NCBI GenBank assembly: GCA_034401795.1 | Contig: CM067370.1 | Span: 105,069,387 to 105,133,386 of the forward strand | Source: Chaetoderma sp. LZ-2023a | Taxonomy: Eukaryota; Mollusca; Caudofoveata; Chaetodermatida; Chaetodermatidae | Length of the DNA stretch: 64,000 nt | Direction of reading: 5' to 3' | In this document: positions 3,037 through 37,276 of the stretch, in pieces | How the letters are laid out: the number at the start of each line of letters is the position of its first letter | How positions within the stretch are numbered: the stretch's first letter is position 1 | Notes under the pieces: generated by a model | Database searches by the model: none | What the model was told of the DNA's origin: nothing | The model's input: only the letters and a program-made list of their open reading frames with translations | Translations under genes and position numbers: made by a program

Positions 3037-3437
3037 TGAGAAAATTGAAATTAGATTGATCAAATTTGACCATTAAATGGTAATACTAAATCTATAACCA
3101 TGTAAAAGTATGGAAATATTTGAAGAGCATTTTCATTATGATGCTGACTGAATTTAATATTGGTATAGAATAAATCTGTAAAGTTGTATTGAACCGGATA
3201 ATAAGCTCTTGATGAAGTGTCCATTTAAAAACTTTCTTCCAATCCTTGGTGCACACCGGATGCCATTTGGATCATTATGTCGAGCCATCCAGTTCTTTGC
3301 GCAGACAGTGACAAAAAAATTAATTAAGATTGACTTTTTGTATTTGTAACATTGTGTATATCATTCTCTTTTTAAGCTGTTAACACCAAAACATTCCCTT
3401 ATTAGGGCTTTGTCGGTCATGCACAGTTGCCAGGTCT
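3037..3437. other. AT-rich non-coding
   Basis: Nothing recognisable was seen between two palindromic repeats. Confidence 0.4.
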
Positions 3438-3636
3438 TAACCCTTTAACACTCAAGTCGGCCAAAAACAGCTTCTGTAGTGGTCTTGGGAAATGTCCATT
3501 TGCAAACCAAGAGAATATTTTGGAAAATTTAAGACTGGAATGACTGGTCATTCCAGTCATAAATTTTCAAAAATAGTCTTCTCTTGGTCTGCAAATGGAC
3601 ATTTCTTGAACAAATTTGGGGTTACGGGGTTAAGCA
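3438..3636 (-). repeat. Palindromic repeat P1, near-complete copy
   Basis: This copy is about 200 bp long and bounded by TTAACCCTTTAA on the left and GGGGTTAAG on the right. The arms read CTTGGGAAATGTCCATTTGC and, inverted, GCAAATGGACATTTCTTG. The centre is GACTGGAATGACTGGTCATTCCAGTC. It would fold into one long hairpin and is a good type copy for the family. No TSD could be assigned with confidence. Confidence 0.7.
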
Positions 3637-5164
3637 ACGTCCAAAATTACTGACAATTTGACCCATGCCGACCTAAGTATTACTCAACTGATTTGTATAT
3701 AAAATTAATAATATAGATAATATAGGTATATAAAATTTCAGACACTACTATGACTGTGTAGAAAGTTGTCCTTTCATAACCTACCCCAAAATGGTGATAA
3801 AAATGTGCAAAATTATGCACTATGGGATGGTGTGGAACAACTTGGTTTGTCGAACTTATGGGTACACAAATATGAGTACCAGTACCACCATAGCTGTAAC
3901 CTTGAATGTGTATACTACAACATGGCACTATCAAAACTTTGTTTGATGTACTTCAGGTGGACTAAAATCAATGATGACTGATGAAACAACTGATCAATCA
4001 AATGTCACGTTTTCTGACGCATACTACACTAGCTCCCTTCCAACCAACTTGCTTAAAATCGGCCCAACGGTTAATGAAAGGTAGTAGTAGTTTAACTCAT
4101 TTCCTGAACATTTTCGGAAATCCAAGATGGCCACCGAAAACATTAATGAGAGAGAGAACATAATACTGCAGAAATTTTCCAGCCTAAGACCTACGTGGTG
4201 GGAACTTACCGTAATTCTATGGACAAAACCTACATGTATGTACATCGTTCCCACAATTACAGATTGTGATAAGCGTGAAACGTCCAAATATGCATTTATT
4301 ATTCGTGCCCAAATAAAGTATATGTGCGACACTGTGGGTTATATTTCTGTAAGAGAGAGGCAAACAGTGATTTACAGCATATGTTTATAATAATACCTCC
4401 AGTAAGTGAGTTAGCCACACCTTTCTTCAATCTGTCACTGCTGTCATAAACTGTGAAATCTGTAAATAGTCAATGAGATCTGATAATTACAATTCCTCTT
4501 TTCAATCTATTCTATTCATTTCCATCATGAAACATCCAGACCCATGGGAAATAAATATGGAACTGTCTAAATGGTAGACTTGTGCGATTATTTCTTGTAA
4601 TGATCATGATCGATTATTTGAGAATAATCGTGATTACTCGATTAATCAGCTTGGGTACAAATTACCCAGATGTAACATCAAAAGCATATCAGTGATGAAG
4701 GTTCTAATGGTGATTAGAAATGTCGCATTTGTAGTGGTTATTTTTCTGCAAAAATAATTTTGCGGAAAATTTTCTATTTTTCCAGAAAGTTTTCCTAAAA
4801 TTGGAAAAATATGTGTATATTTTGACCCATAAAATGTGTGTGCGTGCGTGTGTGTGTGTGTGTGGCACTGTGGTCTGTGGATGTGTCAGTGTATTGGTGT
4901 GTGGGTAAGTTGGTGGGTGGGTGGGTGCAGGCACTGCAGGGCTGTCTGATTGTTTGTTTGACAGACTGCCTGCTAATTTTTACCAATTTCAGTTTAAGAA
5001 CAAAAAAATGGGTATTTTTAAACTAATTATTTTGAAAGTTTAATGACTAAAGCAACTGTCACATTACATGTCCTTTAAACCAGCTGATTTACATGTGACT
5101 AACTGAAGTGCGTAAGTTTCATATATAGCTCAACAGTTCATTTTGGTCATTACAGGCCTATTTT
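3637..5164. other. AT-rich non-coding with TG microsatellite
   Basis: There is no coding signal. A (TG)n/(TGCG) tract lies at about 4836-4866 and explains the Cys/Val and Pro/His-rich ORFs that cross it. The segment around 4590-4650 contains several overlapping inverted repeats built on GATTATT/AATAATC. Confidence 0.5.
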
Positions 5165-7848: not shown

Positions 7849-8463
7849 TTCACTACTCTTCTTAAGACAGCGGGAGTGATGGAAGAAATCAAGCAAGATG
7901 TATACAGTGGTATCACCATGGATATCAAATCCACAAAAGATGACATTGATAACATGAAATTGGCGCTCCAATCACTACGACAGGCTAATGAGCATCTAGC
8001 CCTGGAGCTGGATGCCCATCAACAGTACACCCGCAGAACATGTCTGCTGCTACATGGCGTCCCAGAAAAAGCGAATGAGAGCACCGATGAGCTTGTTATA
8101 CAAACAGTCAATGAAAAGCTTCACGCCCATGGTGTTAAACTGAGCAGCACAGACATCTGCAGAAGTCACAGACTCGGAAGAAAAAGTCTCACACAGACTA
8201 CAACCGCACGCCACCGACCAATTATCTTTAGCCTCACTACATACAACAAGAAAAATGAAATCTTCACCCGTAAAAAGTTTCTAAAGAACACTGGAATCAC
8301 GTTAACAGAAAGCCTGACACCAGCAAGGTTCCAACTACTTAAGGATGTTCAACGACATCAATCTGTTGAAAATGCTTGGACAATCGATGGAAGAGTGACA
8401 TGCCTACTCAGATCTGGTAGAAAAATACCAATCATGTCACCAAATGATCTATCCAAACTCTAG
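7849..8463 (+). CDS. LINE A ORF1 protein, L1-ORF1p-like, 5'-truncated
   Basis: RNA-binding chaperone type ORF1. A predicted helical/coiled-coil segment (about residues 10-65, heptad-like, ending LELDAHQQYTRR) is followed by the hallmark CLLLHGVPE strand and an RRM-like core: DICRSHRLGR, RPIIFSLTTY, FTRKKFLKNTG, ITLTESLTPARFQLL, and a C-terminal domain with NAWTIDGRV. This order matches the Transposase_22/L1 ORF1 fold found in several LINE clades. The frame is open from before the junction at 7849, so the true start is lost. A GTG at 7876 is not a credible start. LINE B has a homologous ORF1 (36809-37271). In L1-like elements this protein coats the element RNA; the role here is inferred. Confidence 0.75.
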   Translation, partial: FTTLLKTAGVMEEIKQDVYSGITMDIKSTKDDIDNMKLALQSLRQANEHLALELDAHQQYTRRTCLLLHGVPEKANESTDELVIQTVNEKLHAHGVKLSSTDICRSHRLGRKSLTQTTTARHRPIIFSLTTYNKKNEIFTRKKFLKNTGITLTESLTPARFQLLKDVQRHQSVENAWTIDGRVTCLLRSGRKIPIMSPNDLSKL

Positions 8464-11400
8464 CTTTTTGAATTCTTTCTTAATGTTACATAATATCATG
8501 ACTATGTATTTCCAAATGTGTATAAATAGTATGCACAGATGCACATTTATTTGACCATATAACGGCTAATCTGCTCAAGAAAAAACAAAATATTCTGAAT
8601 GCCCATTTGTAGGCCAACAGACTATTTTTCACGGTTTACCACTGGAATGAAGGGCTCAGCCTATCGAGCCAGTCATTCCATTGTTAAAATTTAAAAAATG
8701 TCATTCTCTTGGTCTGGAGAAAAAAAAAAAAAAAATGGAAGTTCTTCAAGGCCACTGCATAGGTTGTCTTGCCGTGAAATTATATGTATATAACACTCTA
8801 ATCTTTCATATTATTATTTTACAGAGGATGAAAGCACCTGAACCCATCTAGAACAGTTGGCAAAATTGTGACACCAGGCAAATCGTCAACACGGTAATAT
8901 ATAGTACACAAACCACTATGTGTTATCTGTTGTCTGTCTGCTTTGGTGAGTGGTGCTGTACATACTATCAAATTGTATGTGCTAAAAGTAGTCCAAATGT
9001 CTAATTGTCTGTCCTCCCGATTACCTAAGTACAGGGAGTAATAATAATGTTTATATGCCTGAAACCGATACCCAACACTTTCAACGATGAACTCCCCATA
9101 TATATCTCAATTTCAACGTTTAAATTTGTCTGGAAGCCATTGCTGTCTTAAGGAAGCAATGATTCCCAGTCAGGTTGATTTCAAAAGACAACAGTATACG
9201 TTCGATATCACAAAGATTCGACTTTTTCTGGAACTTCTCAAGGAAGGGGTTAAGCTGTTCTAGCTTCAGTGACTTAAATGATTGTTGCCTGAATATCCAC
9301 AAATGTAATTACGATCCCAATCCCTATAGATACGCTTGTCTAACCCATGATCTGAATACTCGTCATATGGTTATGTAAATGCTCACCTCTACCTATATAT
9401 GTCGCCTCGCTTTACTTGTGATCTATCAAACTCCAACAATAGTTTTTCTCTTACTGTTGGACAATATCAAGACTATGTGTTTTCAAATGTGTATAAATAG
9501 TATGTATAGATGCACATATATCTATTTAACCCTAATCTGGTCAATAAAATCAAAATATCCTAAATGCCCTTGGCAAGCCAAGATAAGATTATTTTTCAGG
9601 GTTTACCACTGGAATGAAAGGCTCGACTACTGAGCCAGTCATTCCAGTGTTAAAATCTCAAAGATGCTACTCTCTTGGTCTGGGAAAAATGTAGGTTCCC
9701 CAAGGCTACCGAAGAAGCCGGCCTGCCGTGTAAGGATTAAATGTAAATAATATACAACAAATTTTCTCTTACTGTTGGACAGTATCAAGACTATGTGTTT
9801 CCAAATATGTATAAAGAGTATGTATAGACGCACATATATCTATTTAACCCTGTAATCTGGTCAACAAAATCAAAATATCCTGAGTGCCCTTTGCAAGCCA
9901 AGAGAAGATTATTTTTTCCAGGGTTTACCACTTGAATGAAGGGCTCCGCTATCGAGTCAGTCATTCCAGTGTTAAAATTTCAAAAAATGGCATTCTCGTG
10001 GTCTGGAAAAAATGGAAGTTCCTCAAGGCCACAGCAGAGGCTGGCCTGCCGCGAAAGGGTTAAATGTATATAATCTAATTTTTCATATTATTATTTTACA
10101 GATGATGATAACACTTGAAGCCACACAGAATAGTTTGCAAATTGTGACACCAGGCAAATCTTCAACACGGTAATATATAGTACACAAACCACTATGTGTT
10201 ATCTGTTGTCTGTCTGCTTTGGTAAGTGGTGTTGTACATACTGTATGTGCTAAATGTAGTCCAAATGTATATTTGTCTGTCCTACCGATTACCTAAGTAT
10301 GTGAATTAACAATAATGTTTAAATGCCTGAAACCATTACCCAACACTTTCACCAATGAACTACCCATATATCTCAGTTTCAACGTCACCACTTCGGAAAA
10401 CTGCTGAATATTATCAGTTAAATCTGTCTGGAAACCGTTGCAGTCTTAGGCAGCAATGGTTCCCAGTCAGGATGATCTCAAAAGACACAACAGTATACGC
10501 CCGATAACACAAAGATTTTACTTTTTCTGAAACTTCTCAATGAAATGGTTAAGCTGTTCTAGCTTCAATGACCCAAATGATTGTTACCTGAATATCCATA
10601 AATGAACTTACATTCCCAATGCCTATATGCTTGTCTAACTCGTGATTTGAATACTTGTCAAACTCCGAAGATACATGTCACCTGGCCTTACCTTCGCTCA
10701 TATCTGCCCATGACGTAACTGACATAATGTATGGTTGTATAAATGCTCACCGCTACCCATATATGTCGCCTCGCTTTACTTGTGATCTATCAAACTCCAA
10801 CAATAGATCTTCTCTTACTGCTAGACAATATCATGACTATGTGTTTCCAAGTGTGTATAAATGGTATGTATGGATGCATATGTATTTGTTTAACCCTGTA
10901 ATGGCTAATCTGGTCAAGAAAATAAAAATATCCTGAATGCCCTTTGCAAGCCAAGAGATTATTTTCCCCAGGGTGTACCACTTGAATGAAGGGCTCCGCT
11001 ATCGAGTCAGTCATTCTAGTGTTAAAATTTCAAAAATGGCATTCTCTTGGTCTGGAAAGAATGGAAGTTCCTCAAGGCCACTGCAGAGGCTGGCCTGCCG
11101 TGAAATGGTTAAATGTATGTAATGTTCTAATCTTTCATATTATTATTCTACAGCTGATGATATCACTTGAATCCACATAGAATAGTTGGCAAACTGTGAC
11201 ACCAAGCAAATCCTCAACACGGTAATATATAGTACACAAACCACTATGTGTTATCTGTTGTCTGTCTGTTTTGGTAAGTGGTGTTGTACATACTGTTATA
11301 TTGTATGTGCTAAATGTAGTCCAAATGTACATCTGTCTGTTCTACCAATTACCTAAGTAGGTGAAGTAACAAGGTGAACTCCCAATATATCTCATTCTCA

Positions 11401-11920
11401 ATGTCACCACTTTGTCTTAGGCAGCAATGGTTCCCAGTCAGGTTGACTTCAAAAGACACAACAGTATACGTTCGATATCACAAAGATTCTACTTTCTTTG
11501 AAACCTCTCAATGTAAGGGCTAAGATGTTCTATCTTCAATGACTTAAATGATTGTTACGTGAGTATCCATAAATGTAGCTACGATCCCAATGCCCATAGG
11601 CTTGTCTAACCTGTGATCTGAATACTCGTCACTCTCCGAAAATACATGTCACCTGGCCTTACCTTCGCTCATATCTGTCCATGGCCTAACTGCCATAACT
11701 TATGGTTACATAAATGCTCACCGCTACCCATATATGTCGCCTCGCTTTACTTGTGATCTATCAAACTCCAACAATAGATCTTCTCTTACTGTCAGACAAT
11801 ATCATAACTATGTCCATCTAATCCATTAACATTTTATATAATCTCATTTTATTAGATAAACACTATCTCTCCATCACAGTAGCCAGCAATAGCCTTTAGC
11901 CACCCCATTTTTTGCTGTCC
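8464..11920 (+). repeat. LINE A inter-ORF tandem array (~1 kb units)
   Basis: Head-to-tail units are anchored on a CAATATCATGACTATGTGTT-like sequence at about 8488, 9461, 9780, 10826 and (last, cut off) 11804. The units are therefore about 970, 320, 1045 and 980 bp, the second one internally deleted. Full units contain, in order: a P1 palindrome (8555-8775, 9848-10065, 10892-11113; also 9530-9745 in the short unit); a TTATTATTYTACAG pyrimidine tract; a block of about 120 bp with GACACCAGGCAAATC...CAACACGGTAATATATAG; a TTTGGTRAGTGGT site; and a second palindrome P2 (GGAARCCRTTGC...GCAATGRTTCCCAGTC). No ORF of note is present. In a bicistronic LINE this position would be between the two cistrons. 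Confidence 0.8.
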
Positions 11921-14900
11921 ATGCCTGTCCGGTTCCCGTGCTTATCCTGCAACAAACCTGTCAAATCTAATCAGCGTGCAATTCTATGTGACTGTTGTGG
12001 TGATTGGGTGCATTTAAGATGCTCCCAAGGGCTAACTATCACAGATTATGAAGAACTCCAGAGTTCTGATGAGCCATGGTGGTGTTTTCAATGTAACCAA
12101 ACTAATTTTCCTTTTAATCACTATGAAAACGATACTGAATTTCTGCTTAATATCATAGGTGCCAAATATGACTACAGTACATATATAAATGCAAACATAC
12201 TTGTAAACCCATTCAAGCTAAATACTTCTAACCAGGGCAATGAATACACAAATTTCTCTGAAACAGATATTGATAATGAAGGTATGAATTTTCCACTCTG
12301 TGACTATATACTTCAGAAAGAATTTAATGATAATATTATCAAGAGTACTGATGCTATCACCTTTTCAATGATTCATATTAACATTAGATCGCTGCTAAAA
12401 AATTTTGATAAATTTAATAACTTTATGGATTCCAGCTCACATGAATTTAGCGTCATAGGAATTACTGAGACATGGTTGAAACCTGACTCATCACTGGACT
12501 TAATTAATATGCAAAATTACAAATTCATTGAAAAACACAGGCCAACTAAAAAAGGTGGTGGTGTAGGCATCTACATAAAGGACAGTTTACAGTATGATTT
12601 GAGAGATGACCTGTCAATGAATGAAGAATTTATTGAAACTATTTTTATTGAAATTCCCAATGAAAAAACTAAAAATAAACTTGTCGGTGTCACATACAGA
12701 CCTCCTGGAAGTGACAACGACAAATTTATGAAATCATTCGAAAAAATTCTAAATACCATACAAAATGAAAAGAAATCCGCTTATATATTAGGTGACTTTA
12801 ATATTGATTTGTTAAAACAACATAGCTTCTACACTCAAGACCTATTAAATTTATTAAAAATATCTGGCTTTTATCCATTTATAACGAAACCAACAAGAAT
12901 TACAGAATGCTCGGCTACTGTTATTGACAACATCATCTCGAATAATGCTGTAAGTGGCAAGAATCAAACAGGTATCTTTGTTGTAGATATTTCAGACCAT
13001 TTACCTATTTTCTATATAGAAAAAGAAAACAAAAAAGGAAAATCATTTGTAAAAGAAACAGTAACTTGTAGAGACTTCAAAAAGGAAAATATAGAAATGT
13101 TCAAAAACAATATGGCTAACATAAACTGGAACCAGGTAATTGAATCCCAGTCATGTGAAGATGCCTACAACACCTTCCACACTATATGCTCTAACATCTA
13201 TGAATCTGCCTTTCCACTTAAAAATATTAAGAAATTTAAACAAAATCCTACTAAACCATGGATTACAAGAGGAGTGATAGCTGCCTGTCACAAGAAAAAC
13301 AAGTTATATCTGAATTTTATTAAATATCCGACAAAGTATAATGACTCACAGTTCAAGAAATATAGAAACAGGCTAAATCAGATAATTAGGACAGCAAAAA
13401 TACATTATTTTCATAATAAATTTGATGAACAAAAAGATAATATAAAGGAAACATGGAAACTGATTAAATCATTACTAAATAAGAAAAAAACCAATACTGA
13501 AGCATCACGGTTTATTTATAATAATAGAGTCATTAACGACAAAAAAGAAATAGCAGACAAATTTAATGAGTATTTTACTAACATTGGTCCTAATTTATCA
13601 CAAAAAATTCAACCCAGCTCGAACATACATATAACGGACTTTCTAACAGGTAGTTATCAACACTCTATTTTCCTAAATCCAACAGATACTCACGAAATCT
13701 ACAAAATACTAATGCAAATTAACACAGCTAAAAGTGCTGGAATCGATAATTTCAAATGGAAAATTTATAAACACTGTGTAACAGAAATACTAACACCATT
13801 GGACCACATCTGTAATCTCTCACTTACACAGGGAGTATTTCCATCAAGATTAAAGGTTGCACGTGTGACACCCATATACAAAGCTAAAGATGTATCTGAC
13901 TTTACTAATTATCGGCCAGTCTCGGTACTTCCACTTTTCTCAAAACTCTTAGAAAAGCTGTATTTTAGTAGAATTACTAAATATCTAAACAAAAACTCAA
14001 TCATATATCCTTCTCAATATGGTTTCAGAGAAAAACACTCTACTATGCTTGCCATTGTGGATATGATAGAAAAATTATCAACCTCCCTTGAGAATAATGA
14101 ACATACGCTAGGTGTATTCTTGGATCTTTCCAAAGCCTTCGATACAATTGATCATACAATTTTACTGCAAAAGCTTGCATACTATGGAATAAGAGGTACT
14201 GCATTGAACTGGATACAGAGTTACCTGTCAAACAGGGAACAGTGTGTACAATTCAATGGGGCTATCTCTGAATACAAAAATATAGTTTGTGGTGTTCCCC
14301 AAGGTTCAGTTCTTGGGCCCCTGCTGTTTCTCCTATATATGAATGACATACCCAAAGTCTGCAAACATCTCTCACTAATACTTTTTGCAGATGACACAAA
14401 TGCTTTCTGCAGCCACAAGGATATAGAAATTCTATACAAAAATGTCAATAATGAAATGGCAAAATTAATAGACTGGTTTAAAGTAAACAAATTGTCCTTA
14501 AATGTATCAAAAACTAATTATATACTATTCACAAAATCTAAGAAACTAAAAGAAATAGCTCTCCCAAACCTCTATATCGACAACCAGATAATTCAAGAAG
14601 CACAATATGCTAAGTTTTTAGGAGTATATCTGGACAAAAATTTAACATGGGAGAAGCATATTGAAATTATTACTACCAGGGTAGCAAAAAGCATTGGCAT
14701 CATTCGCAGACTGAAACCCTATCTAACACCTAATATTATTAAAACCCTGTACTGCACAATGATACTTCCTCACATCACTTACTGCAATGCTATCTGGACT
14801 AATACATCTCAAGCTAGACTAAAAAAACTAAAATCTCTGCAAAAGCAATCTATTAAACTATTTTCACAAACAGCAGGTGGCCAGGATATCTTTAAATCAG

Positions 14901-15208
14901 AAAAGGTCTTAAAACTTGAGGACATAGGAGGCCTCCAACTATACACAATCTTAAGGGACTTCCACAATGGCAACTTACCCTCATCCTTATCTAACATTTT
15001 TATGCTCAATACACAATTGCATCCTCACAACACAAGAACAAGAGATAACCTCCATTCAACACACCACCAAACAAAAGCAGCACAACAAAAACCCTCATAC
15101 AAAGCAATTCAGTTATGGAATAATACAGACACAAGCACACGCACAGACATCATAAAGCTACAGTACTTTAAGCAGAATATCAAAAAGAAGATTATAGAAA
15201 CCTACTAG
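11921..15208 (+). CDS. LINE A ORF2: PHD finger, endonuclease, reverse transcriptase
   Basis: Intact 1095-aa polyprotein. The ATG at 11921 is preferred to upstream TTG codons because LINE B ORF2 starts at the same residue (MPVRF versus MPIKF). Residues about 6-52 form a PHD-like Cys/His finger (CLSC..CDCCGDWVHLRC..WWCFQC). Residues about 145-360 are an APE-type endonuclease with ITETW, TYRPPG, LGDFNIDL, IDNI and SDHLPIF. Residues about 610-870 are the reverse transcriptase with NYRPVSVLP, LDLSKAFDTIDH, GVPQGSVLGPLLF and catalytic FADDTN. A C-terminal region ends at IIETY. No stop or frameshift is present. The protein would nick target DNA and reverse-transcribe its own RNA in the nucleus (target-primed reverse transcription). 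The PHD finger could bind histone tails. Clade: CR1/L2/Daphne-like, not resolved. Confidence 0.93.
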   Translation: MPVRFPCLSCNKPVKSNQRAILCDCCGDWVHLRCSQGLTITDYEELQSSDEPWWCFQCNQTNFPFNHYENDTEFLLNIIGAKYDYSTYINANILVNPFKLNTSNQGNEYTNFSETDIDNEGMNFPLCDYILQKEFNDNIIKSTDAITFSMIHINIRSLLKNFDKFNNFMDSSSHEFSVIGITETWLKPDSSLDLINMQNYKFIEKHRPTKKGGGVGIYIKDSLQYDLRDDLSMNEEFIETIFIEIPNEKTKNKLVGVTYRPPGSDNDKFMKSFEKILNTIQNEKKSAYILGDFNIDLLKQHSFYTQDLLNLLKISGFYPFITKPTRITECSATVIDNIISNNAVSGKNQTGIFVVDISDHLPIFYIEKENKKGKSFVKETVTCRDFKKENIEMFKNNMANINWNQVIESQSCEDAYNTFHTICSNIYESAFPLKNIKKFKQNPTKPWITRGVIAACHKKNKLYLNFIKYPTKYNDSQFKKYRNRLNQIIRTAKIHYFHNKFDEQKDNIKETWKLIKSLLNKKKTNTEASRFIYNNRVINDKKEIADKFNEYFTNIGPNLSQKIQPSSNIHITDFLTGSYQHSIFLNPTDTHEIYKILMQINTAKSAGIDNFKWKIYKHCVTEILTPLDHICNLSLTQGVFPSRLKVARVTPIYKAKDVSDFTNYRPVSVLPLFSKLLEKLYFSRITKYLNKNSIIYPSQYGFREKHSTMLAIVDMIEKLSTSLENNEHTLGVFLDLSKAFDTIDHTILLQKLAYYGIRGTALNWIQSYLSNREQCVQFNGAISEYKNIVCGVPQGSVLGPLLFLLYMNDIPKVCKHLSLILFADDTNAFCSHKDIEILYKNVNNEMAKLIDWFKVNKLSLNVSKTNYILFTKSKKLKEIALPNLYIDNQIIQEAQYAKFLGVYLDKNLTWEKHIEIITTRVAKSIGIIRRLKPYLTPNIIKTLYCTMILPHITYCNAIWTNTSQARLKKLKSLQKQSIKLFSQTAGGQDIFKSEKVLKLEDIGGLQLYTILRDFHNGNLPSSLSNIFMLNTQLHPHNTRTRDNLHSTHHQTKAAQQKPSYKAIQLWNNTDTSTRTDIIKLQYFKQNIKKKIIETY

Positions 15209-15893
15209 ACTCTGGAAAACACACACCATCATGGCATGCTATTCTCATACTTGCACCCAGTCACCAGAACAAATAATAATAATAATAATAATATTAATAA
15301 TAAGAAGAATATCTGTCATAATGGTAACTACCAAACAACTAACTCTACCATCACAGCCTAAAAAATACTTTGTCATTGATAATAAGAATATGTAATATAG
15401 AATTATTAACTTAAGCAAGATAAGCACACATCCCTCTGTCATGTCTTTCCCTGTAAAAATGTAAATTGTCATACGTCTATTAACTGTTGGACTGCTGGAA
15501 GCGGACAATAACTCCAATTGGCAATGACTCTGGATTGGCTGAGTATTCTAGAAAAATTTGACTGAAAGTTGCTTGTGGCTTAGCCACCGACAACGTTTGG
15601 TCAAATTGTTTTAGAGGTACTCAGCATACCCTGAGTTAGGCTCCATGGAAAATGTAGACTGCAGAGGCTTGGCAGCGAGACAGTTAACTATATGTATATA
15701 TAGGACTATAACATGTTAACCGTATGTATTCAGTATTCTCATGTCCTATACTGTTGTTGTTATATGTTATATGTTATATGTAGGGGTCCACCGCCACATA
15801 GGCTCTGCCTTTGGTGGACTACCTGTTGTGAAACTGTAAATGTATATTCTATATCAAAATAAATAATCTTGAACTTGAACTTGAACTTGAACT
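15209..15893 (+). other. LINE A 3' UTR and tail
   Basis: Contains (AAT)n at about 15271-15302, a diverged stretch, then TAGGGGTCCACCGCCACATA...GGTGGACTACCTGTTGTGAAAC and an AAATAAATAATC end followed by four TTGAAC units (about 15868-15892). The mirrored block near 28860-28950 identifies LINE B as the same family. AATAAA-like sequence occurs near 15860. Confidence 0.75.
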
Positions 15894-21679: not shown

Positions 21680-22058
21680 CAATTTATTTACCAAATTGGA
21701 ATTTAAATTTAAATTGATTTTTAAATAAGAATTTTCATAGTATAATACTTAATACGTTTGTGGAATTAATTTTTGGTGCATTTAAAGTCATTAGTATCGA
21801 ATTAGCCAGCCAAATGTGTTAGAATTTACATGTTTTCAACTGGATTACATACCACGAACATATAACGATATATCATCGTCATTGTTTCCATGGTAATCGA
21901 AAATTAAATAGTTGTCGTTTTTCCTTGAGATCGTCAACAGCTACAGTTCGGCGATCAGGTCTGTATTACTAAGCATATACTTTTTGGCATAAATACAGCA
22001 CTTCACACGACAAAGTACGGCGCATTCAGATGGCAGAAAAGAGTCAACAAGCTCCAAC
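21471..22058. other. (GA)n microsatellite and LINE G 5' UTR
   Basis: A (GA)n run lies at about 21610-21677. Everything from about 21680 to the ATG at 22059 is taken as the 5' leader of LINE G. An out-of-frame ATG is at 22030. The exact 5' end was not found. Confidence 0.5.
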
Positions 22059-22889: not shown

Positions 22890-25643
22890 CTGAAACAAAA
22901 GCCAGTTAAAACACATGTAAATAGTTCTTGTTCACCATGCACTTCTATTTGTATATACACTAACAGTGATAATTTATTAAATAAAAGACAGGAGCTTGAA
23001 CTTCTAGCAAATGAAATCCAGCCAGCCGTGATCTGCATAACAGAGGCATTTCCAAAGTACACACAGACAGCTCAAACACAGTGAATTGCAGTTGAATAAT
23101 TATGACTTATTTACAAACACCAGCCCTTTGCGAGGAGTAATTGTTTACACACAAGTCCATTAGTGCTCAACCATGTGACTCCTTGAATAATTCTGACGTT
23201 AATGAATCTGATTGGTGCCACTGGACAATGGGTAATAATGAGAAGGTCCTACTGGGGTGCGTGTATCAGAGCCCGAGATCCAACAGTAGCAACAACGACA
23301 ACCTAATCAGTCTGTTAAATAATACTGACAAGGAAAACGCAACGCATTGTTTGATTGTCGGAGACTTTAACTACCCTAACATAAACTGGGATACAGGTAC
23401 CTCAACTGATCAGACCGGTCAACACTACATGATAATCTCCTACAGCAATTTGTTCACAAACCCACTGGGCATCGGGAACTTCAAAAAGAAAGCACCGTAG
23501 ACTTAGTTATTACGAACAATGCCAATGTAATTATCGACATTTCACATGAAGCCCTTCTTGGCAAGAGTGACCATGACACGCTAGAAATACATATACACCC
23601 TAACCTAATCAGCGGTGACAACTTCACTTAAGAACCAGACAAATTACTTCTCCACAAAGGCAATTATGACAGCATGAGAAGTGAACTGACTGAATTGATT
23701 GGAGCATAATGAATAATCTAACTACAAAGGATGCAGCAAACTTCTTCTATCAGAAATTGACGGACATAATGTCAAAAAACTTCCCTACAGCAAAAGCAAA
23801 TAAAACACAGAACAGGAAACCCATCTGGACCAACAAGTCTGTACTTGATACGATTAAAGAAAAACGTAAAGCTTTTAAGAAATTCAAGAAGACTAAACGT
23901 ACTAATGATTACAACAATTACAAACATGCGAGAAACTTAGCCAATGCAAAAATTAAAGGAGCTAAAAGGGATTTCGAACATAAAATAGCCACAGAGAGTA
24001 GTACAAACCCAAAAACATTCTGGAATTATGTGAAGAGCAAAACACCATTAAAAGACAACATTGGCAACTTGAAGGATCCAAACAGTGGAAATATTGCAAC
24101 AACAGATACAGAGAAATCGCGAACACTTAATACATTTTTTCAGATGTATTTACCATCGAAAGCCTTAACGAAATCCCAGAACTTTCACAAAGAAATGGTG
24201 GAAATTTTCTAGCCAACATCGTAATAACTCCAGTTGCTGTAGAAAATAGACTGAATCAACTTAATCCAAACAAAAGTAACGGGCTGGACAAGACACTACC
24301 AAGAATTCTAAAAGAGACAGCCAAAGAAATCAGCACACCAATATGCATCTTGTTCAATAAGTCGCTAGACGAAGGAACATTACTAAGTATATGGAAAACA
24401 GCGGATGTGACATGTATCTACAAAAAAGGCCCGAAACATAATCCTGGAAACTACAGGCCTGTTAGTCTCACGTGTATACTGTGCAAAGTATTGGAATCAT
24501 TTGTCCGGGATGCAATAATGGAGTACGTTGAACAAAACCATCTTCTATCTGAATGCCAGCATGGTTTTAGGTCCAGAAGATTGTGTAAGACACAGTTATT
24601 AGAATATCTAGAAATCCTAACCCGAACCTTAGATGCCCATCAGCCAATTCACGTAAACTACCTAGATTTCAAAAAAGCATTTGACACGGTACCGCATGTA
24701 AGACTACTAAACAAACTGCAGGCGTACGGAATGGGTAGCCTCATAATAAACTGGATTCGTGATTTCCTCACCAACAGAAAGCAAAGAGTGCAACTGGGAT
24801 CAACTAAATCTGATTGCAAGGATGTAGCTAGTGGGGCGCCACAGGGCAGTGTCCTGGGTCCGGTACTTTTTGCTCTCTTTATAAATGACCTGCCAGATGT
24901 TATCGACTGTATCTGCAAAATCTTTGCTGATGACACAAAGTTAATTGGGAATCCTGAAATAACAGACATACAGAAAAACAGCGATTGGACATGCCAGTGG
25001 TCACTTGATTGGCAGCTTAGATTCAATTCGACAAAAATCCATGTTCTCCATCTGGACAAAAATAACCCACCAATACAGTACAACATGACAGATACTCCAA
25101 TTGCCCAACCAATAACCAAAACGGAGTGTGAAAAAGATCTGGGAATCCACATCGACAACAAATTAAACTTTTACTATCACATACACACCATCGTCAATAA
25201 GGCAAACAGCATACTAGGAGTTATAAAAAGAACATTTACCTATCTGGACTCCACAATATTGATACTGCTATGCAAACCCCTAGTCAGACCTATACTGGAA
25301 TACTGCAATACGGTGTGGGCATCCCACCTTCTGAAACAGTCACGGACACTAGAGAGGGTACAACGACGAGCAACTAAGTTATGAAGGGAGACTTAAAGCA
25401 TTGAATTTGTTCTCTCTGAAGTACCGCAGGACACGTAGAGACCTGATTGAGGTGTACAACGTGACGAGAAACATCTACAATGTTGATCCATCCAATCTCT
25501 TCAGTGTACCCTCCACAAGCATCACCCGTGGTCATAGCTTCAAACTAGGAATTCAAAGCTGCAACACTAACTTAAGAAAGTACTTCTTTACAAAACGTAC
25601 CCCACCAATCTGGAATAACCTACCTGCACACATAGTGGACTAA
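22890..25643 (+). pseudogene. LINE G ORF2: endonuclease and RT, several breaks
   Basis: Endonuclease N-terminus SICIYTNSDNLLNKR..PAVICITE (about 22950-23050) in phase with ORF1, with a stop near 23081. A second piece (23141-23500) has GCVYQSP and LIVGDFNYPNINW. The connector (23709-24212) has WTNKSVLDTIKEKRKAFKKF and FWNYVKSKT. The RT (24350-25384) has NYRPVSLTCILCK, LDFKKAFDTVPH, SGAPQGSVLGPVLF and intact FADDTKL. The C-terminal domain (25401-25643) is in a shifted frame and has RGHSFKLGIQ and IWNNLPAHIVD. At least four frameshifts or stops make it non-functional. Confidence 0.88.
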
Positions 25644-26846: not shown

Positions 26847-28823
<1,977 letters not shown>

Positions 28824-29206
28824 TTACAGCTTCTTCTTTTTTTTTTGATTTGATTTTATTCTCTTGGTAAATATTACAAATTACAATATGATAACAGGGA
28901 GTCCACTGGAGGCTGTGCCTATTAGCTTGTGGACCCCTGACATCGAATAACATACAAATTACACATGATTTGACACAAGTAGACATAAGGCATTATGACG
29001 ATATATTATACATAACTACAGACAAATAATATAGGATTTGACATTAAAAAAAGAGAAGAGAAAAAAAAAAGACAAGACATTTGACAAACATGGTTCACTT
29101 GTTTTTTATTGTTTCTCATACTGTGGGTAACATATTTCACTCATTGGAATGGGCTAGGGGATGAAGGGGATGGGGTGGGGGAGGGGGCTGGCGTTCATCC
29201 TGTTTC

Positions 29207-29276
<70 letters not shown>

Positions 29277-29724
29277 GTCTATCACCTTCTTTCCCTAGAG
29301 GAAAGAGGGTAAATGTGACCATGTGAATCTGTGTGCGAGTCTATTTCTTAGTGTGTCTGTCATGGCTGGGTTTCTTAGAGCTCTTAGATATGATCAAGTA
29401 AAGATAACAATGGCCAACATGATTCTAGCAAAAAACTGTTTTAGTTATGACGTAAGTAATCTTCTGTACACATTTGGAATAGAAGACATTGCTGCCTTAT
29501 GCAGAAACTTCTCCCACAAATTCCACTAGGTCCAGAATATTCAGCATTACCTCTTTTATTTTATGTAGACAATATGTCAAACCGGATTGTAGAGGCAAGG
29601 CAAGAGCAGTAATATCAATATTGCTTACAGGTGGTTCTTCATTATGAATTGCTGGTAATTGCTCTGGTGTCCGGGCGCATCAAGGTGCAGTAACTAATAT
29701 ATGAGTGAGGTCCAATTACTCGAT

Positions 29725-32700
29725 TTAGTACTTATTAATGAACATTTGTTTAATAATATGTGTGTAGGAATTTTGACTAATAATCTGTGTAGGTGTGTTC
29801 GTGTCTGTGTTATTCCAGAGTTTTGTAGCTTGAAAGGATGGTTTTCGTTTTGAGATTTCCATACTATTGTATTCTGTGTGAAAGCTGTGTCTAGATCTGG
29901 TGTTGTATGAGTGTATTTCAGTATTTAGGTTACAGAGAGCAGACAGTGAATTTGGTAGATTACCTTTGAAAAAATCCTTTATTATTGTATATAATTGTAG
30001 ATTACCAATATCTTCTAGTTTTAATAAATTTTCTGTCTTGTAAACATTTTGGGCCTCTCCTGTTTGTGCAAAAAGTTTAACGGCTTGTTTTTGAAGTGAT
30101 TTTAGTCTTGCCAGTCTGATTTTATATGTATTAGTCCAAATAGTGTTGCAATAAGTAATTTGTGGGAGTATTGACGTGCAATATAGTGTTTTTAGTATGT
30201 TAGGTGGTAAGTATGATTTAAGTTGTCACATGATCCCAATGTTTCTTGCCACTTTAGATGTTACAATCTCTATATGTTTCTCCCAGGTTAGATCTTTATC
30301 CAGGTAGACGCCTAAGAATTTAGCAAACTCAGCCTCCTGTATTTCCTGACTATCAATGTACAATTTTGGCAAGTCATTTTTCTTTAGTTTTCTAGATTTT
30401 GTAAAGAGCATGTAATTAGTTTTCCCGACATTCAGTGATAATTTATTTACTTTAAACCAATTTATTACTTTTTCCATTTCTTCATTTACATTTTTATATA
30501 GTGTTTCTATATTCTTGTTGTGGCAAAAAAGCATTGGTGTCATCTGCAAACAGTATTAATGAAAGGTGCTGACAAACATTGGGTAAATCATTCATATATA
30601 TTAAAAACAGGAGAGGTCCAAGCTTTGATCCCTGCGGGACACCACAGACTAGGTTTTCGTTGCTAGAGCAAGCTCCGTTGTATTGTATGCACTGTACGCT
30701 GTTTGATAAATAACTTGTTATCCAATTTAGGGTAATTCCTCTCACTCCATAATAAGATAGCTTTTTTTTATTAGAATCTTATGATCAATTGTGTCAAAAG
30801 CCTTAGAAAGATCAAGAAATATGCCAAGAATATGTTCTTTGTTTTCTAGAGAATTTGTTATTTTTTTCAGCATATCTATCAGAGCCAGCATTGTTGAGTG
30901 GTTTTGTCTAAAACCATATTATCCTTTATAGAGAATGGAATATTTATTTAAGAAAATTATCAGTCTATTGTAGAAAAGTCTTTCTAGAAGTTTAGAAAAT
31001 AGCGGAAGTACTGAGATGGCCAGGTAATTAGTGATGTCAGAAGAGTCCTTGGCTTTATATATTGGTGTCACCCGTGCTACTTTTAGTCGAGATGGGAATA
31101 TACCCTGCACCAGGGAAAGATTACAAATGTGGTTCAGTGGGATTAATATTTGTGAAAGACAGTTTTTAAAAATTGTTCCATTTAAATTATCAATGCCTGC
31201 ACTTTTGTTCAGGTTTATTTGCATTAAGATTTTTTAGATTTCATCTGTGTTAGTAGTATTTAGAAAAACTGAGGATTGATAGCTGCCTGTCAGATAATCT
31301 TCTATATTTGCATTAGAGGTATTCCTAATTTTTTCCAATAGGCTGGGTCCAACGTTGATAAAATATTCATTAAATTTATTTGCTATATCTTGGTTGTCGG
31401 TTAAAACTTTGTCATTATATATAAATCTTGATGTCTTTATTAACGTTATTAACTTCCACATTTCTTTGATATTGTCTTTCTGATTGATGAATTTATTATG
31501 GTAATGATTGATTTTGGCTCTCCGGATTACTTGGGTTAGTCTGTTGCAATATTTTTTATATTGAGATTCATTGTACTTTGTAGGGTGCTTAATAAATGTT
31601 AAGTACAGTGTGTTTTTCTTATGACAAGCAGCTATCAATCCCCTAGTTAGCCATGGTTTAGTCAGGTTTCGTTTAAATTGTTTAGCTGTTTTTAGTGGAA
31701 AGGCGCTATCATATACATCTGTGCACACAGTATGGAATGTGTTGTAGGCATCTTCACATAACTGACAATCAAGAATGCAATTCCAGTTTATAGCAGACAT
31801 AGCGTTCTTAAATTTGTCAATATTTTCTATTCCAAAGTCCCTACACCTTAGATTTTCTTTTATAAATGATTTTTGTTTAACTTCTGGGTTTTTTCAGGTG
31901 GTAAACAGGCAAGTGATCAGACAGGTCTGCAACAAAAATACCTAATTGAGTTTTCCATTCAGCAATGCTATTTGTGAAGATATTGTCAATGATGGTCGCA
32001 GTTGTTTCTGTAATTCTAGTCGGTTTTGTTATGAGTTGATAGAAGCCATATGAGTCAATTAAGTTTAGTAGGTTTTGTGTATAAAAGCAGTTTTGTTTTA
32101 GTAGATCATTGTTGAAATCCATAATGTGTGTATCCTTTTGGATAGTTTGCAAAATGTTATTGAAAGCTTTGATAAAATTATCATTATCCGTTCCTGGGGC
32201 TCTATAAATAACACCAACAATTTTGCTTTTTGATTTACTTCTGGGTATTTCAATAAAAAGGCCTTCTATATCTGCTTCCATCATGTACAGATCCTCTCTT
32301 ATATTATATTGAATGGTATCCTTTACATAGATGACTACACCACCTCCCCTTGCGGTTGTGTTGTGCTGGTCTATGCTTTTCAATGAAGTTATAGTGCTGT
32401 CTATCAATTAAGCTTAGTGGTGAGTCTGGTTTCAGCCATGTCTTAGTAACACCAATTAGATCAAATTCATGAGAGCTTGCATCCAGAAACATGCCTAGTT
32501 TATCGTTATTCTTCAGAAGAGATCTGATATTAATATGAAGTTGAGAGAATGTGATTGTTTCATTTACATTCTTAATTAAATTATCATTAAATTCCTTTTG
32601 AAGAACATAGTCACATTCTGGTGTTAGATATTTAATTTCTTCATTATCAACATCATCGTGAGATATACTATTTTGGTAGGATTTGTTACGCTTAAACGGA

Positions 32701-32993
32701 TTAAAATGTGTGTCTTGGTGGGTATATTGATACATGTGGTTATATCGTTCATTTATGTCCAGGATAGCTAACATGAAATCAGTATCATCATCATAGTGAT
32801 TATAGGGAAATAAATCTTTATTGCAGTCAATGCACCACCATGGCACCTCTGAGTTTTCTAGTTCTGCATATTCAGCAGTGGTAAGCTTTGAGCAGCGTAA
32901 GTGTATCCAGACACCACAGCAATCACATAGTATGGCATATTGGTTACATCTAACTGGTTTTCTACAGGAAGAACAAAGGAATTTGATGGGCAT
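29725..32993 (-). pseudogene. LINE B ORF2: PHD, endonuclease, RT, frameshifted
   Basis: Homologous along its length to the intact LINE A ORF2. The PHD finger starts at the ATG at 32993 (CSSCRKPV..CDCCGVWIHLRC..WWCIDC). Endonuclease blocks are IGVTKTWLKPD (the catalytic Glu region reads TKTW instead of TETW), IYRAPG, MDFNNDLL and SDHLPVYH. The connector is at 31800-31234. The RT has the fingers at 31224-30919, GVPQGSKLGPLLFLIYMNDLP and FADDTN at 30745-30494, and the thumb at 30549-30226. The C-terminal end WNNTDT lies near 29800 and the TAA at 29725-29727. At least six frame changes make it dead. Confidence 0.88.
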
Positions 32994-33685
32994 AGGACGA
33001 GTGAGGTATAGGTGTAATTGTGGGTAGAATAATTATTATGCGATTCGCTATTGAAATATTAGGGAAGTGGACAAGTGAGAAAAGGCTACCGGAAGGTTTC
33101 CTCAGCTTGGCAGAAAACATGTGGTTTAGGATGGCTGGAAGCAATTTAGATTTTTCATAATATCTAGCTGGTGGCTTCGGAGAAGCGGATATACTGGTAT
33201 GGGTATTGGTCTGGCTGTATATATGGCTAATTATTCAGGATGGCAGTTTAATATTTTTATACCGGCATGACAGAGCATAAATAACGAGGGTAACATTTTT
33301 TTTAAAGGATAAGGAATGAATAGTATCTTCTGATGGAAAGGAAAATGAAAGCAGTCGCTTATAGCTATATGAGCACTTATAATTATGATCAGTGGCAATC
33401 CCCCCCCCCCCCCCAGACAAAAAAAAACCCTTGATGTAGTGAAAAAAGAATATTCAAATTCTTGTTGGATAAATAATATACATGTACATTCGCATGACCA
33501 GTGTAGACCTCTCTCGGGAACCTATCACTGGAATGGCTGAATCAATTAGTATGTCAGTCAACCCCGTGGTAAGAACCTCAAGAAAGGCCACTCTGAGTCT
33601 GTAAGCCGGCACTTCTGAAGACTAGTATAAGACTGGATTGGTTGGCGGAATTAAGGAGCAAGATAAGAAGGAATAAGATACGCGT

Positions 33686-33746
<61 letters not shown>

Positions 33747-36700
33747 CATTAGCAATACACAGTTTGCATGTATAAGTAGATGACATTGGACACATGAATT
33801 TAAGGAAAAAATTGAATGTAGATATTGAATGCATGCAGTTTGACACATATACAAAGCATAAAGCAAAATGATAGTGACAAATTAGGAAAAAAAGAAAAAT
33901 GAGGGAGAAATATGACAGATATTGAGAGCATATAGCTTGACATAGACAAAGCATAAAGCAACAGCATAGAATTGTCAAGTTGACAACTTAATACAAAGCA
34001 GCAAAGCAAAATGAACAGAAATATGACACAGACATTGACAACGTATAATTTAACATATACAACGCATAAAGCAAAATGATATTGACAAAAAAATCATAAG
34101 GTGAAACAGAGCACAATGACACATGTAGTAGACTGAAGCAGAGCACTGACAGACCAAATGAAAATAAATAGAAAATGGATAAAATAAAACAAAAATCAGC
34201 AGATTTAGTGCCTCTGATGATATAATGGTCATGTAGATCACTGATGCAGGAGAATGCAAACAAAATGCAATAGTTAAATTGAAGCATGGGCTTTTTAGTT
34301 GCAACTCGCAGCCAGTACACATTGGTCTGGCAGTCTATTTCTGGCAGGGCCATTGGAGTCGCAACTATAGCATGTTTAATTAAATTGTAAATTTTACCAT
34401 AATTTTGAGCTGTCAAAGTTGGAGCTTCACGTCTATGCCACACTTTCTCATCTGGGAAAAATAACAGTGCGTGAAGAACATGTATATATGACTATATGAC
34501 ATTTTATCATTAATATTGTTGCTATCTGGTACTTTGAAGCAAATTTACACTGGTATATGATATCCATCTTTCAATAAATGAGATGGAAGCTGTCATTTAT
34601 AGTTTAGGTAATCAGTCATTTTTTTTAATTTTTACCCTGCTTGGAGCTCATGATTTATCAAAAAATTTGAATTTTTTGTGAGTGGATGTCCACTCGCATC
34701 CGTAGGTCAGGTGCAGACCGCCCCTGAACATTATCACTGGAATGCCCGACTCCGTTATTGAGCCAGTCATTCCAATGGTAAAGCACCAGGAAAGAGGTCA
34801 TGTTTGTGCCCACACATTGATATTACTCAAGATACATACACGGCCGGTTCTGGACGGCTTTGTGGTTATCTGATTACAATTGACTCATAAGAGTTTTACG
34901 TCATAAGCATAAGCAAAATGAGGTTTTTTTAAATAGAATACATTGCGAAAAACAAATGAAGAAGATTTTTAACAAATATGGAATTGGACGGGCACAAGCT
35001 TAACCCTTTTATGACGAAGCCACCCAAAACCGGCCTCTGTAGTGGTCTGGAGGAATGTCCATTAGCAGGCCAAGAGAGGACTATTTCTGCAAATTCACCA
35101 CCGAAATGCCTGGCTCCATAACCGAGCCAGTTATTCCAGTGGTAAACTTTAAAAAATAAAAATAAATAAATAAATCTCCAGGCCTGCAGATGGACACTTA
35201 ATAAGCAAATATTCTGTTTTTCTTGACCGAATATAGGCATTAAATTGTTAGGGAAGGCAGACAAAAATTAAAAGACTTTGGCATAAATATCGACATATTT
35301 AGTTGGACGTACACAGTGGATAAAGCAAATAAAATGTATGATATGACAGGTCAGATATTGACAATACTAGGCTGAAGCAGCAGTCCATGCATAAATGAAA
35401 ATTTAAAACGAGGTAAGTTTGTAGAAATAGGCAAGCAATTTAGTTTTCATATATCCAGAGTTTGGGATGTCTGTTGATCTTCTTGATAATCAATCGGGCG
35501 GGAAGCTGAACATCGCTAACATAACATGTAGCAACTTCCAGTCCGAACCATTTTCAAGTGCACATTCAGGTAATTTCCACATTATTAGATTCTTGTGACA
35601 TGTAATTTTCGTGAACTCATCTCACAATGTGAGATACATAATTCAGGAAGACGGTTAACTAAATATAGTTTCAGGGCATAATTTAGAATTTGATATTTAC
35701 ATAGCATATATTGCTTCTCAAATTATAAATTGTATAGTTTTCAGCAAAAATGAATAGCAATAAATTCCCTGTATCTCAATCTCAGAGCAAACAAACAGGA
35801 AAGCTGTTGAATATTTCGAAATTAATTTTGAAATTAATATGACTGGAAGCCACCGCTTCCTAAGGCAGCAATGACTTTCAGTCATACCAATTTCAAAATA
35901 TTCAACAGAATATGCTATGTATGTACATAGTAAAGAATATACTTTTTCGGGAATTTGTCGTTGAAAGGGTTAATAATAGAATTTAAGAAAATTAATAATA
36001 TAGCTATACATTTTGCAGAATGTATAGTAAATACCTAAATATATGTAGCAAATTGAGATGCGATACTAGATTATGCAAATAAATCATGATACAGGCGACA
36101 GAGAGCACAAAATAAATTACAATGCAACGAACATTTAAAACTAAATTGAAAAAAATAAATAAAGAAAATAAAAAACCAAAAAAAACCCCAGAGGGCAGCA
36201 TATGCAAAGAAGCAGTAATTAAATTGATGCGTTAACTTTCTATAAATTTTACCACAATAATTGGCCTGTCAGGTTAGGGCTTCATCTCTGTAACAAACGT
36301 TGTTATCTGAAAGAAATAACAGCAGGCAATTTATATAGAATATCTACATGTATAATGTATAGGATTATGATATGTTATAGCTTGGTAGTACGCAGTTGAC
36401 CACTTCAGTTACTGGTTTCCCTAGTTACCCCCTCATTTGTCAACTTAAGTCAAGCCGGTCAAAAAGTAGTCTGCACGGATATTCATTTGCAGGCCAGCAG
36501 AAGACAATTCCTGAAAAACTTTTCACTGGAGTAATTGGATCGGTAATCGAATAAGTCACTCCAGTGGTAAAACCTCAATAAACAATCATCTCCCTGCCTG
36601 GATGCACATTGCTAAATAAAGCTCCAACAACTTTCTTGCAAAAATGGTGACCATTAAAGGTTAAAGTGAAAGAAGATACATTGACACAAATATGCAGAAA

Positions 36701-36808
36701 GGGTTAATCATTGTTTTGTAGTCTCTTGCTTAGCTTAGATTTAATTAGATGTAATACATATATTGTTTTTCATTGGTTAGGTTTCATGTAATAATGTCCT
36801 TAATTTGC
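32994..36808 (-). repeat. LINE B inter-ORF spacer with palindromic repeats
   Basis: 3.8 kb without coding signal. P1 palindromes lie at about 36440-36665, 35001-35240, 34700-34800 and 33505-33605; the two best copies (36.5 and 35.1 kb) have the same orientation relative to the LINE as in LINE A. A P2 palindrome is at about 35800-35960. A block near 36216-36330 recurs diverged at about 34374-34480. A unit of about 100 bp with CAAAGCATAAAGCAAAATGA repeats at 33838-34085. A (GCAC)n run lies at 33681-33747, a poly-C run at 33401-33414, and short ORFs overlying the (GCAC)n run are artefacts. Confidence 0.75.
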
Positions 36809-37271
36809 TTATTTCAGCTTATTAAGATCTTCAGCTACATCAACTATCATCTTTCTGTCGTTCTTCGTTTGATAAAGGATTCGGCCATCCATTGTCCATG
36901 CCGATTTAACATCTTCATGATGTTGCATTCGCTTCAGGAGATCTAACCTGTTCTTGGTCACACTTTCAGTCAGCACAGTGTTGTTTCCTTTCAACTTTCT
37001 TTTATTACTTAAGATATGGTGCCTAGTGTTATAAGCCACGAGACGAAAGATGATTGGCCTTGATTTAATGCGACCATCTGCAGTGGCTTGTGTGCCTATG
37101 CGTTTTGGCCCAATTCTATGACTGCGACAGATGTTCGCTGGATCAATTCGTATGCCAAGTTTCTCATTAATTACATTTATCACCACATTATCTGTATTCT
37201 CATTTGGGGTTTCTAATACACCGTGTAGAAGCAAACAGTTCCTTCTACTATACTGTTCATACTGTTCATAT
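36809..37271 (-). pseudogene. LINE B ORF1 protein, 5'-truncated
   Basis: The minus-strand frame from the junction reads YEQYSRRNCLLLHGV, DPANICRSHRIGPKR, RPIIFRLVAYNTR, NTVLTESVTKNRLDLLKRMQ, SAWTMDGRI and ends DLNKLK at the TAA near 36809. It matches LINE A ORF1 block for block (CLLLHGVPE; DICRSHRLG; LTESLTPARFQLL; NAWTIDGRV). The upstream part of the apparent ORF (to 37366) is antisense LINE C sequence, not ORF1. The coiled-coil N terminus is missing through 5' truncation. The remaining frame is open. Confidence 0.82.
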
Positions 37272-37276
37272 TTACA

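Follow-up and report, generated by a model that had tools for sequence, protein, structure and literature searches.

Two long interspersed nuclear elements (LINEs) with a non-coding spacer of several kilobases between their open reading frames, ORF1 and ORF2, have been found in a 64,000-nt stretch of the mollusc Chaetoderma sp. LZ-2023a (GCA_034401795.1, contig CM067370.1, forward-strand positions 105,069,387 to 105,133,386, here C12:105069387-105133386), which is referred to as the window throughout. Comparable spacers separate the two frames in related elements of the same genome, which form a clade whose long-gap unit is copied whole, and we see about an even chance that ORF2 is entered near a short leader independently of the ribosomes that translate ORF1. 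A more specific proposal, which we hold tentatively and somewhat short of even, is that the two genes have become uncoupled throughout the clade, with a promoter or splice acceptor just upstream of the ORF2 start providing a separate mRNA for this frame, and that the freely growing inter-gene region takes in and tandemly duplicates palindromes of the miniature inverted-repeat transposable element (MITE) type while the element stays mobile. The initial annotation of the window had described one LINE family with a kilobase spacer that transposes as a unit; this description has held, and in fact applies to a clade of families.

The long-gap unit and its copies

The genome (2.44 Gb), from which all copies and lineages compared here are derived, has been searched with ORF1 and ORF2 of the element called LINE A, and both frames have been found to co-occur outside the window. 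The ORF2 search, with 42 of 77,078 first-look candidates scored, has given at least 42 near-complete places of 96-100% identity, LINE A included, and the ORF1 search, with 150 of 660 scored, at least 150 places with identities from 100% down to 37%. LINE A is accordingly classed by its sequence as a member of a young family (family A). Among the matches listed, 11 ORF1-ORF2 pairs have been recognized by coordinate, ten belonging to family A and one to a relative further removed, with 58% identity in ORF1; their gaps range from 2.39 to 4.26 kb, and in none of the 11 are the two frames adjacent. The widest gap belongs to copy L007, in which an inverted piece of spacer separates ORF1 from the remainder, an arrangement expected from twin priming. 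Six pairs are free of stops in both matched stretches, and in three of those the ORF1 match begins close to the start of the frame. From the 41 ORF2 loci other than LINE A, 20 copies have been fetched, six of which extend into ORF1, all with the spacer, and the remaining 14 of which end within it; a contiguous DNA match over ORF1, spacer and ORF2 has been obtained at 8 of 22 scored places, LINE A included. As expected of LINEs with an APE-type endonuclease, 18 of 19 unique fetched copies end short of the full 5' end. Two copies on small contigs (L013 and L014, on C623 and C1891) share an identical truncation point and identity figures and probably represent a single locus that has been assembled twice.

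In four copies the upstream match ends at a common base (±1-2 nt) upstream of ORF1, with unrelated flanks beyond, and these copies have been taken as full-length. Their layout is seen in L001, which consists of a 219-nt 5' untranslated region (5'UTR) with five ATGs, a 285-aa ORF1, the spacer, ORF2, a 3'UTR and (CTTGAA)n, the latter being found at all four 3' ends fetched. Given the common 5' end, transcription would start upstream of ORF1 and the spacer would lie inside the RNA that is copied, which implies an unspliced RNA, of ~8.5 kb in family A with the usual spacer, as the template of retrotransposition. A spacer spliced out of the genomic RNA as an intron has been rejected, as no spacer-less copy occurs in the 11 pairs or the 20 fetched loci, and so has a subgenomic RNA copied from one start inside the spacer, since the 18 truncation points form no tight cluster. 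Two copies, L009 and L012, are truncated 1 nt apart (A 11783 and A 11784) within unrelated flanks (P about 0.10), which could reflect a short ORF2 RNA or chance. Only 2 truncation points fall in the distal half of the spacer against 11 in the proximal half (P 0.02), for which drop-off of the reverse transcriptase (RT) could equally account.

A clear target-site duplication has not been seen at the four full-length copies of family A; the second element in the window, LINE B, is flanked by a 5-bp TTACA (28824-28828 and 37272-37276). If both flanks are joined with a single TTACA, an open RT reading (...RNSLLHPDKCTSMC...) is obtained over the insertion site in the interrupted element, LINE C. As the frame of this RT is restored, the 8443 bp between the repeats have arrived together, and the arrival of the whole LINE B in one event, spacer included, has thereby been confirmed as initially annotated. 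A 5-bp duplication has also been reported for insertions of zebrafish ZfL2-1 in DT40 cells (PMC4245944), which is the length of the TTACA repeat. The ORF2 of LINE B is frame-broken and lies in several frames. Its mismatches to the ORF2 of LINE A amount to 25/17/50% at codon positions 1/2/3, a pattern that indicates descent of both lineages from working ORF2s and, by this sequence comparison, purifying selection on the ORF2 frame between them.

The spacer of LINE A, annotated at ~3.45 kb and measured at 3457 nt (Table 1), contains the annotated palindromes P1 and P2, as does that of LINE B, and is largely built of four tandem units, u1 to u4, which are mutually 79-89% alike. In the six fetched copies extending into ORF1, every unit is matched by its counterpart at the other loci, for the most part with 98-100% identity (the lowest values being 94% for u3 of L017 and 97.5% for part of u1 in L007), and the array is therefore older than the copies. 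The arrays of L001 and L017 are each short of one unit, which points to recombination or template jumping as the cause of the loss. Units can be removed cleanly, and no fixed sequence is maintained in the spacer.

A long gap is not restricted to family A. Fourteen loci with more distant ORF1s have been fetched, and in the ten with a measurable ORF2, L033 included, every gap is at least ~1.45 kb. From the stop of ORF1 to the ATG of ORF2, with an accuracy of a few nt, gaps of 3457 nt (A), ~3.82 kb (B), 2694 (L021), 3330 (L022), 3858 (L023), 3473 (L026), 3123 (L029), 1889 (L030), 4020 (L031), 2967 (L032) and 4052 nt (L034) have been determined. These 11 copies thus span 1889-4052 nt, and none shows the short gap, of tens to hundreds of nt, of bicistronic elements of the L1 or SART1 type. 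The list leaves out L033, whose ORF2 start is missing (first residue seen 158; gap extrapolated to ~1.45 kb), L025, whose ORF2 is found only from residue 687, 2.4 kb after ORF1, and L024, L027 and L028, in which ORF1 is present and no ORF2 occurs within ~5.5 kb. A tree of ORF2 joins ((L031/L034),(L030,(L032/L033))) with ((B/L029),((L023/L026),(A,(L021/L022)))), giving seven lineages, all of the long-gap type, with ORF2 identities to A down to ~53% (45% for the partial L033). Most simply, the long gap would be ancestral to the clade.

Table 1. Positions of LINE A, LINE B and their parts within the window.
Feature	Position	Strand	Remarks
LINE A	7859..15893	+	5'-truncated inside ORF1; 3' tail (CTTGAA)n
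LINE A ORF1, C-terminal part	7859..8463	+	full ORF1 of 285 aa in copy L001
LINE A inter-ORF spacer	8464..11920	+	3457 nt; 102 ATGs
Tandem unit u1	8465..9435	+	971 nt
Tandem unit u2, short	9436..9753	+	318 nt; L017 without u2 or the equivalent start of u3
Tandem unit u3	9754..10799	+	1046 nt; exactly missing in L001
Tandem unit u4	10800..11770	+	971 nt
P1 module in u1	8539..8793	+	others in LINE A: 9508-9752, 9826-10074, 10872-11124
P2 module in u3	10395..10498	+	others in LINE A near 9124-9186, 11413-11469
Conserved ORF2 leader	11871..11920	+	84-86% identity to L021/L022, falling to 56% in the 50 nt upstream and to background beyond
LINE A ORF2	11921..15208	+	PHD, endonuclease, reverse transcriptase; open frame
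LINE B	28829..37271	-	5' truncation inside ORF1; TTACA at both flanks
LINE B ORF2 homology	29725..32993	-	spread over several frames
LINE B inter-ORF spacer	32994..36808	-	~3.82 kb; no array of kilobase units
P1 module in LINE B	34993..35258	-	others: 36417-36684, 34622-34895, 33407-33678
P2 module in LINE B	35810..35924	-	
LINE B ORF1, C-terminal part	36809..37271	-	
P1 comparison copy	3436..3637	.	TTAA-bounded, outside LINE A and B

The ORF2 leader and access to ORF2

Within the spacer, conservation has been found to concentrate directly before ORF2. Besides the leader shared by A, L021 and L022 (Table 1), the last 150 nt before ORF2 are 72-88% identical between L030 and L032. These values are near or above those at the third codon positions of ORF2 for the pairs concerned (72-77%), and in the bins upstream of the leader the identity drops to near the level of shuffled pairs. 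Between lineages, spacer matches lie almost entirely on P1/P2 or beside ORF2. It is shown, or closely implied, that the gap is ancient and that its sequence is maintained only next to ORF2, over the last 50-150 nt in the two comparisons close enough for a judgement. The leader is pyrimidine-rich, mostly G-poor and, in nine of 11 copies, free of ATG for 80-148 nt, with P 0.007-0.07 in these nine copies relative to other positions of the copy's own spacer. Each of 13 spacers counted holds 42-104 ATGs in total, which makes scanning from ORF1 implausible.

As only the leader is kept, one may postulate that ribosomes coming from ORF1 do not reach ORF2, which would instead be entered at or just upstream of the leader. 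Most likely this would occur on an mRNA of its own, produced from a promoter or through a splice acceptor in the last part of the spacer; internal ribosome entry would be a less likely route. The uncoupling of ORF2 would have freed the spacer to drift and grow; copies of P1 and P2 are contained in it and, in some families, have been amplified into tandem arrays. Such an arrangement is unexpected, because in SART1 and human L1 the translation of ORF2 has been reported to depend on that of ORF1 (PMC2881922), and because a long gap has been reported to inhibit the jumping of L1 (PMC4072516).

Several observations weigh against an independent entry at the leader, apart from the coupling known for SART1 and L1. 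The ATG-free leader is no better than composition shuffles (P 0.145-0.641 in 11 copies) and does not hold in L023/L026, and the five ATGs in the 5'UTR of ORF1 demonstrate that the family tolerates them. At candidate splice acceptors near the leader the AG is missing in L022, L032 and L034, and the leader is not alignable across distant families (A-B, A-L026). An AUG-free gap of a megabat L1 has been reported to work less well, which its authors regard as in line with reinitiation (PMC4072516), and a single genome supplies the entire evidence. TATA-like and splice-like strings noticed by eye in the units of A have been discarded as candidates, as they were not found in the aligned ends of the other spacers, although no full scan was made.

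In a possible, if doubtful, alternative, ORF2 would be translated from the full-length RNA by internal entry at the leader or by reinitiation, for which a case has been made in L1, the spacer being tolerated junk that only lowers the output of ORF2. The long gap of megabat L1 has indeed persisted despite inhibiting jumping, and an internal ribosome entry site has been reported upstream of mouse L1 ORF2 (both PMC4072516). A full-length RNA with both frames exists as the retrotransposition template, and the leader is rich in pyrimidines and, for the majority of families, poor in G. Against this, the longest L1 gap surveyed measures 580 bp, compared to 1.9-4.1 kb with 42-104 ATGs here, a length that renders reinitiation very unlikely but leaves internal entry unaffected.

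We regard it as unlikely that the layout goes back to a hybrid, formed when a 5'-truncated LINE with PHD, endonuclease (EN) and RT landed downstream of the ORF1 of another LINE and the spacer was left over. Such a route has been proposed by Metcalfe and Casane for the swapping of ORF1 (PMC4120745), and it would account for a gap that is non-coding and of no set length. However, it concerns the origin of the unit and not its present function, and any fusion must predate all seven lineages, as all have the layout. A search for a short-gap outgroup with P0019, a protein outside the clade, has furthermore found none: it has returned 42 places, 38 of which are the known family A. Among the four that are left, one has an ORF1 at a distance of 3.8 kb, the remaining three not having been fetched.

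Palindromic repeats in the spacer

Both P1 and P2 are self-complementary by folding. A genome search with 3436-3640, which covers a P1 copy outside the two LINEs, has yielded 3629 first-look candidates, of which 40 have been scored, with 79-87% identity besides the query and on 18 contigs. Six free-standing copies have been fetched; all are palindromic, their similarity is lost past the ends, and P1 is therefore a discrete repeat. Five of the six, as well as the window copy at 3436-3637, start with TTAACCC, and the sixth with TTATCCC, the 3' boundary being less regular. By its sequence, P1 is a palindromic repeat of MITE type whose ends are of the TTAA type; like P1, P2 is dispersed in the genome. 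Going by these ends alone, we take P1 to be a MITE of the piggyBac type. Like the palindromic MITEs of this type, P1 has TTAA-type ends and CCCTTT termini, measures ~235 bp, is self-complementary and is dispersed. Next to two of the fetched copies (L045, L047), a further P1- or P2-like stretch is found.

The view of the palindromes as a hallmark of the LINE has consequently not been borne out, as both repeats also occur outside it. They are nevertheless enriched in the spacers, partly by tandem duplication. P1 reaches 0-1.5 and P2 0-2.1 per kb, and at least one of the two is present in 12 of 12 spacers. Since profiles trained on LINE copies are biased towards these, profiles trained on free-standing copies have also been run. 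In the 128,327 nt of flanks of the fetched loci, LINE-trained profiles have detected 6 P1 and 9 P2 and free-standing-trained ones 12 and 18, although these control flanks have not been cleared of other LINE remains, so that part of the copies counted as outside may belong to spacers of this kind. In the 47.7 kb of the window not occupied by LINE A or LINE B, the free-standing-trained profiles have found 3 P1 and no P2. Three P1-like palindromes are located within 0.9 kb at 2742-3637, two of them at 2850-3095 and 3436-3637; near these two no ORF1 match and only a weak RT match (5252-5773, 26-42% identical) have been observed, and the group may represent either the spacer of an old LINE or several MITEs inserted close together. 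A further P2-like palindrome (29469-29559) is found within the 3' portion of LINE B and not in its inter-ORF spacer.

The long-short-long spacing of P1, which the initial annotation had pointed out in A and B, is literally true, but a layout by descent has been rejected: in a P1 tree (modest to weak support) the P1s of A cluster, the four of B scatter, and LINE and genomic copies mix. As the P1s of A lie in array units and those of B are not mutual nearest relatives, the likeness is probably due to chance. In a similar manner, the common orientation ascribed to the better copies is retained with the LINE-trained profile, but becomes mixed with the free-standing-trained one in B and in L031 and L034 (one of six in each of the latter).

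It appears quite improbable that the hairpins are kept for a task in the RNA or DNA of the LINE, e.g., as entry site, RNA packaging signal, promoter or boundary. P1 or P2 has been found in all 12 spacers scanned, with a density where present of 0.26-2.1 per kb against 0.047-0.14 per kb in the 128 kb of flanks, and in all four lineages that have both, P1 makes its first appearance ahead of P2. The folding of LINE copies is also stronger than that of genomic ones, with mean z of -4.8 vs -3.8 for P1 (27 vs 6 copies) and -5.4 vs -4.9 for P2 (24 vs 12 copies). However, this difference is small and carries no significance test, and stronger hairpins in the LINE copies have accordingly been dropped as a candidate feature. 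In addition, no palindrome is common to all lineages, P1 being absent from L030, L032 and L033 and P2 from L031 and L034; P1 copies are present at many other places (40 scored), and LINE and genomic copies are mixed on the tree. With the free-standing profile, the estimated chance of at least one match per 3.3 kb of spacer is about one half. An artefact, i.e., two unrelated insertions side by side or a chance nesting in the window, had been conceivable while only two copies, both 5'-truncated, stood behind the first reading, but is refuted by the common 5' end, the near-identical arrays at many loci, and the target-site duplication with frame restoration.

Related systems and surroundings in the window

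The layout is nearest to ORF1 type IIB in subgroup 5 of the L2 lineage, which also has a separate ORF1 and an ORF2 that probably opens with a PHD finger and contains EN and RT (PMC4120745); this likeness to type IIB of Metcalfe and Casane (2014) is one of layout. Mammalian L1s with a long intergenic region, e.g., megabat lineage 1, are likewise bicistronic with a persisting long non-coding gap; the inter-ORF gaps surveyed there measure 18-580 bp (PMC4072516), in contrast to ~1.9-4.05 kb here, where ORF2 also has a PHD finger. Tandem arrays and MITE-like repeats, as seen here, are not described for mammalian L1 in the available part of that report (PMC4072516). The statement of the initial annotation that no described family is alike therefore stands for kilobase gaps, none of which is mentioned in the titles and abstracts found, but not for long gaps as such, since those of up to 580 bp are described in mammalian L1s. 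As subscription papers and repeat-library reports lie mostly outside the material covered, this negative carries little weight.

In mouse L1, the 5'UTR monomers are likewise non-coding units in tandem whose number differs from copy to copy; they have a promoter role and lie upstream of ORF1, whereas the units described here separate ORF1 from ORF2. With gaps several times longer than the longest of the L1 survey, this recently active clade offers a natural experiment on an ORF2 without coupling to ORF1, and presents a retrotransposon that carries and duplicates DNA-transposon-like repeats inside its own body.

LINE A has been correctly placed on the strand opposite to LINE B with the same order of parts, but its start has been shifted from the annotated 7849 to 7859, as five other copies that extend beyond it match only from query base 11. 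Its ORF2 matches RVT_1 (2.2e-35) and Exo_endo_phos (3.2e-09) in Pfam, consistent with an APE-type LINE, and the PHD at the ORF2 start has E values of 8.2e-4 (LINE A) and 4.5e-4 (LINE B), both below the Pfam gathering score. In type IIB, ORF1 is of the transposase-22 type (coiled coil, RRM, CTD). The full ORF1 of family A has no Pfam match, no Tnp22 match by HMMER and no meaningful match in the PDB; PF25298 is present in one distant relative. A known structured RNA in the window has been rejected, since the Rfam scan gives nothing at the gathering score and the tRNA scan none. Of two database proteins, P0004 and P0005, one is 100% identical to the ORF2 of LINE A over 97% and the other is placed very close to the L026 family on the ORF2 tree; they represent DNA of the host or of a close relative within public sequence sets.

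Directly 3' of LINE A, at 15832-20336 (+), a 313-aa frame with 42-bp repeats overlaps a 945-aa frame with RVT_1 but without an endonuclease match, which is followed by a frame with a weak zf-RVT match; in this element the ORFs overlap, unlike in LINE A. Upstream of the LINE B insertion site, a separate frame at 21993-22889 (+) contains a PHD finger above the Pfam cut-off (1.4e-07), and an RT frame lies beyond it at 24131-25384 (+). A frame for a Tc1/mariner-type transposase (HTH_Tnp_Tc3_2, DDE_3) is located at 27370-28179 (+), and a perfect (TA)n of ~85 copies occupies 28502-28672, immediately before the LINE B insertion.

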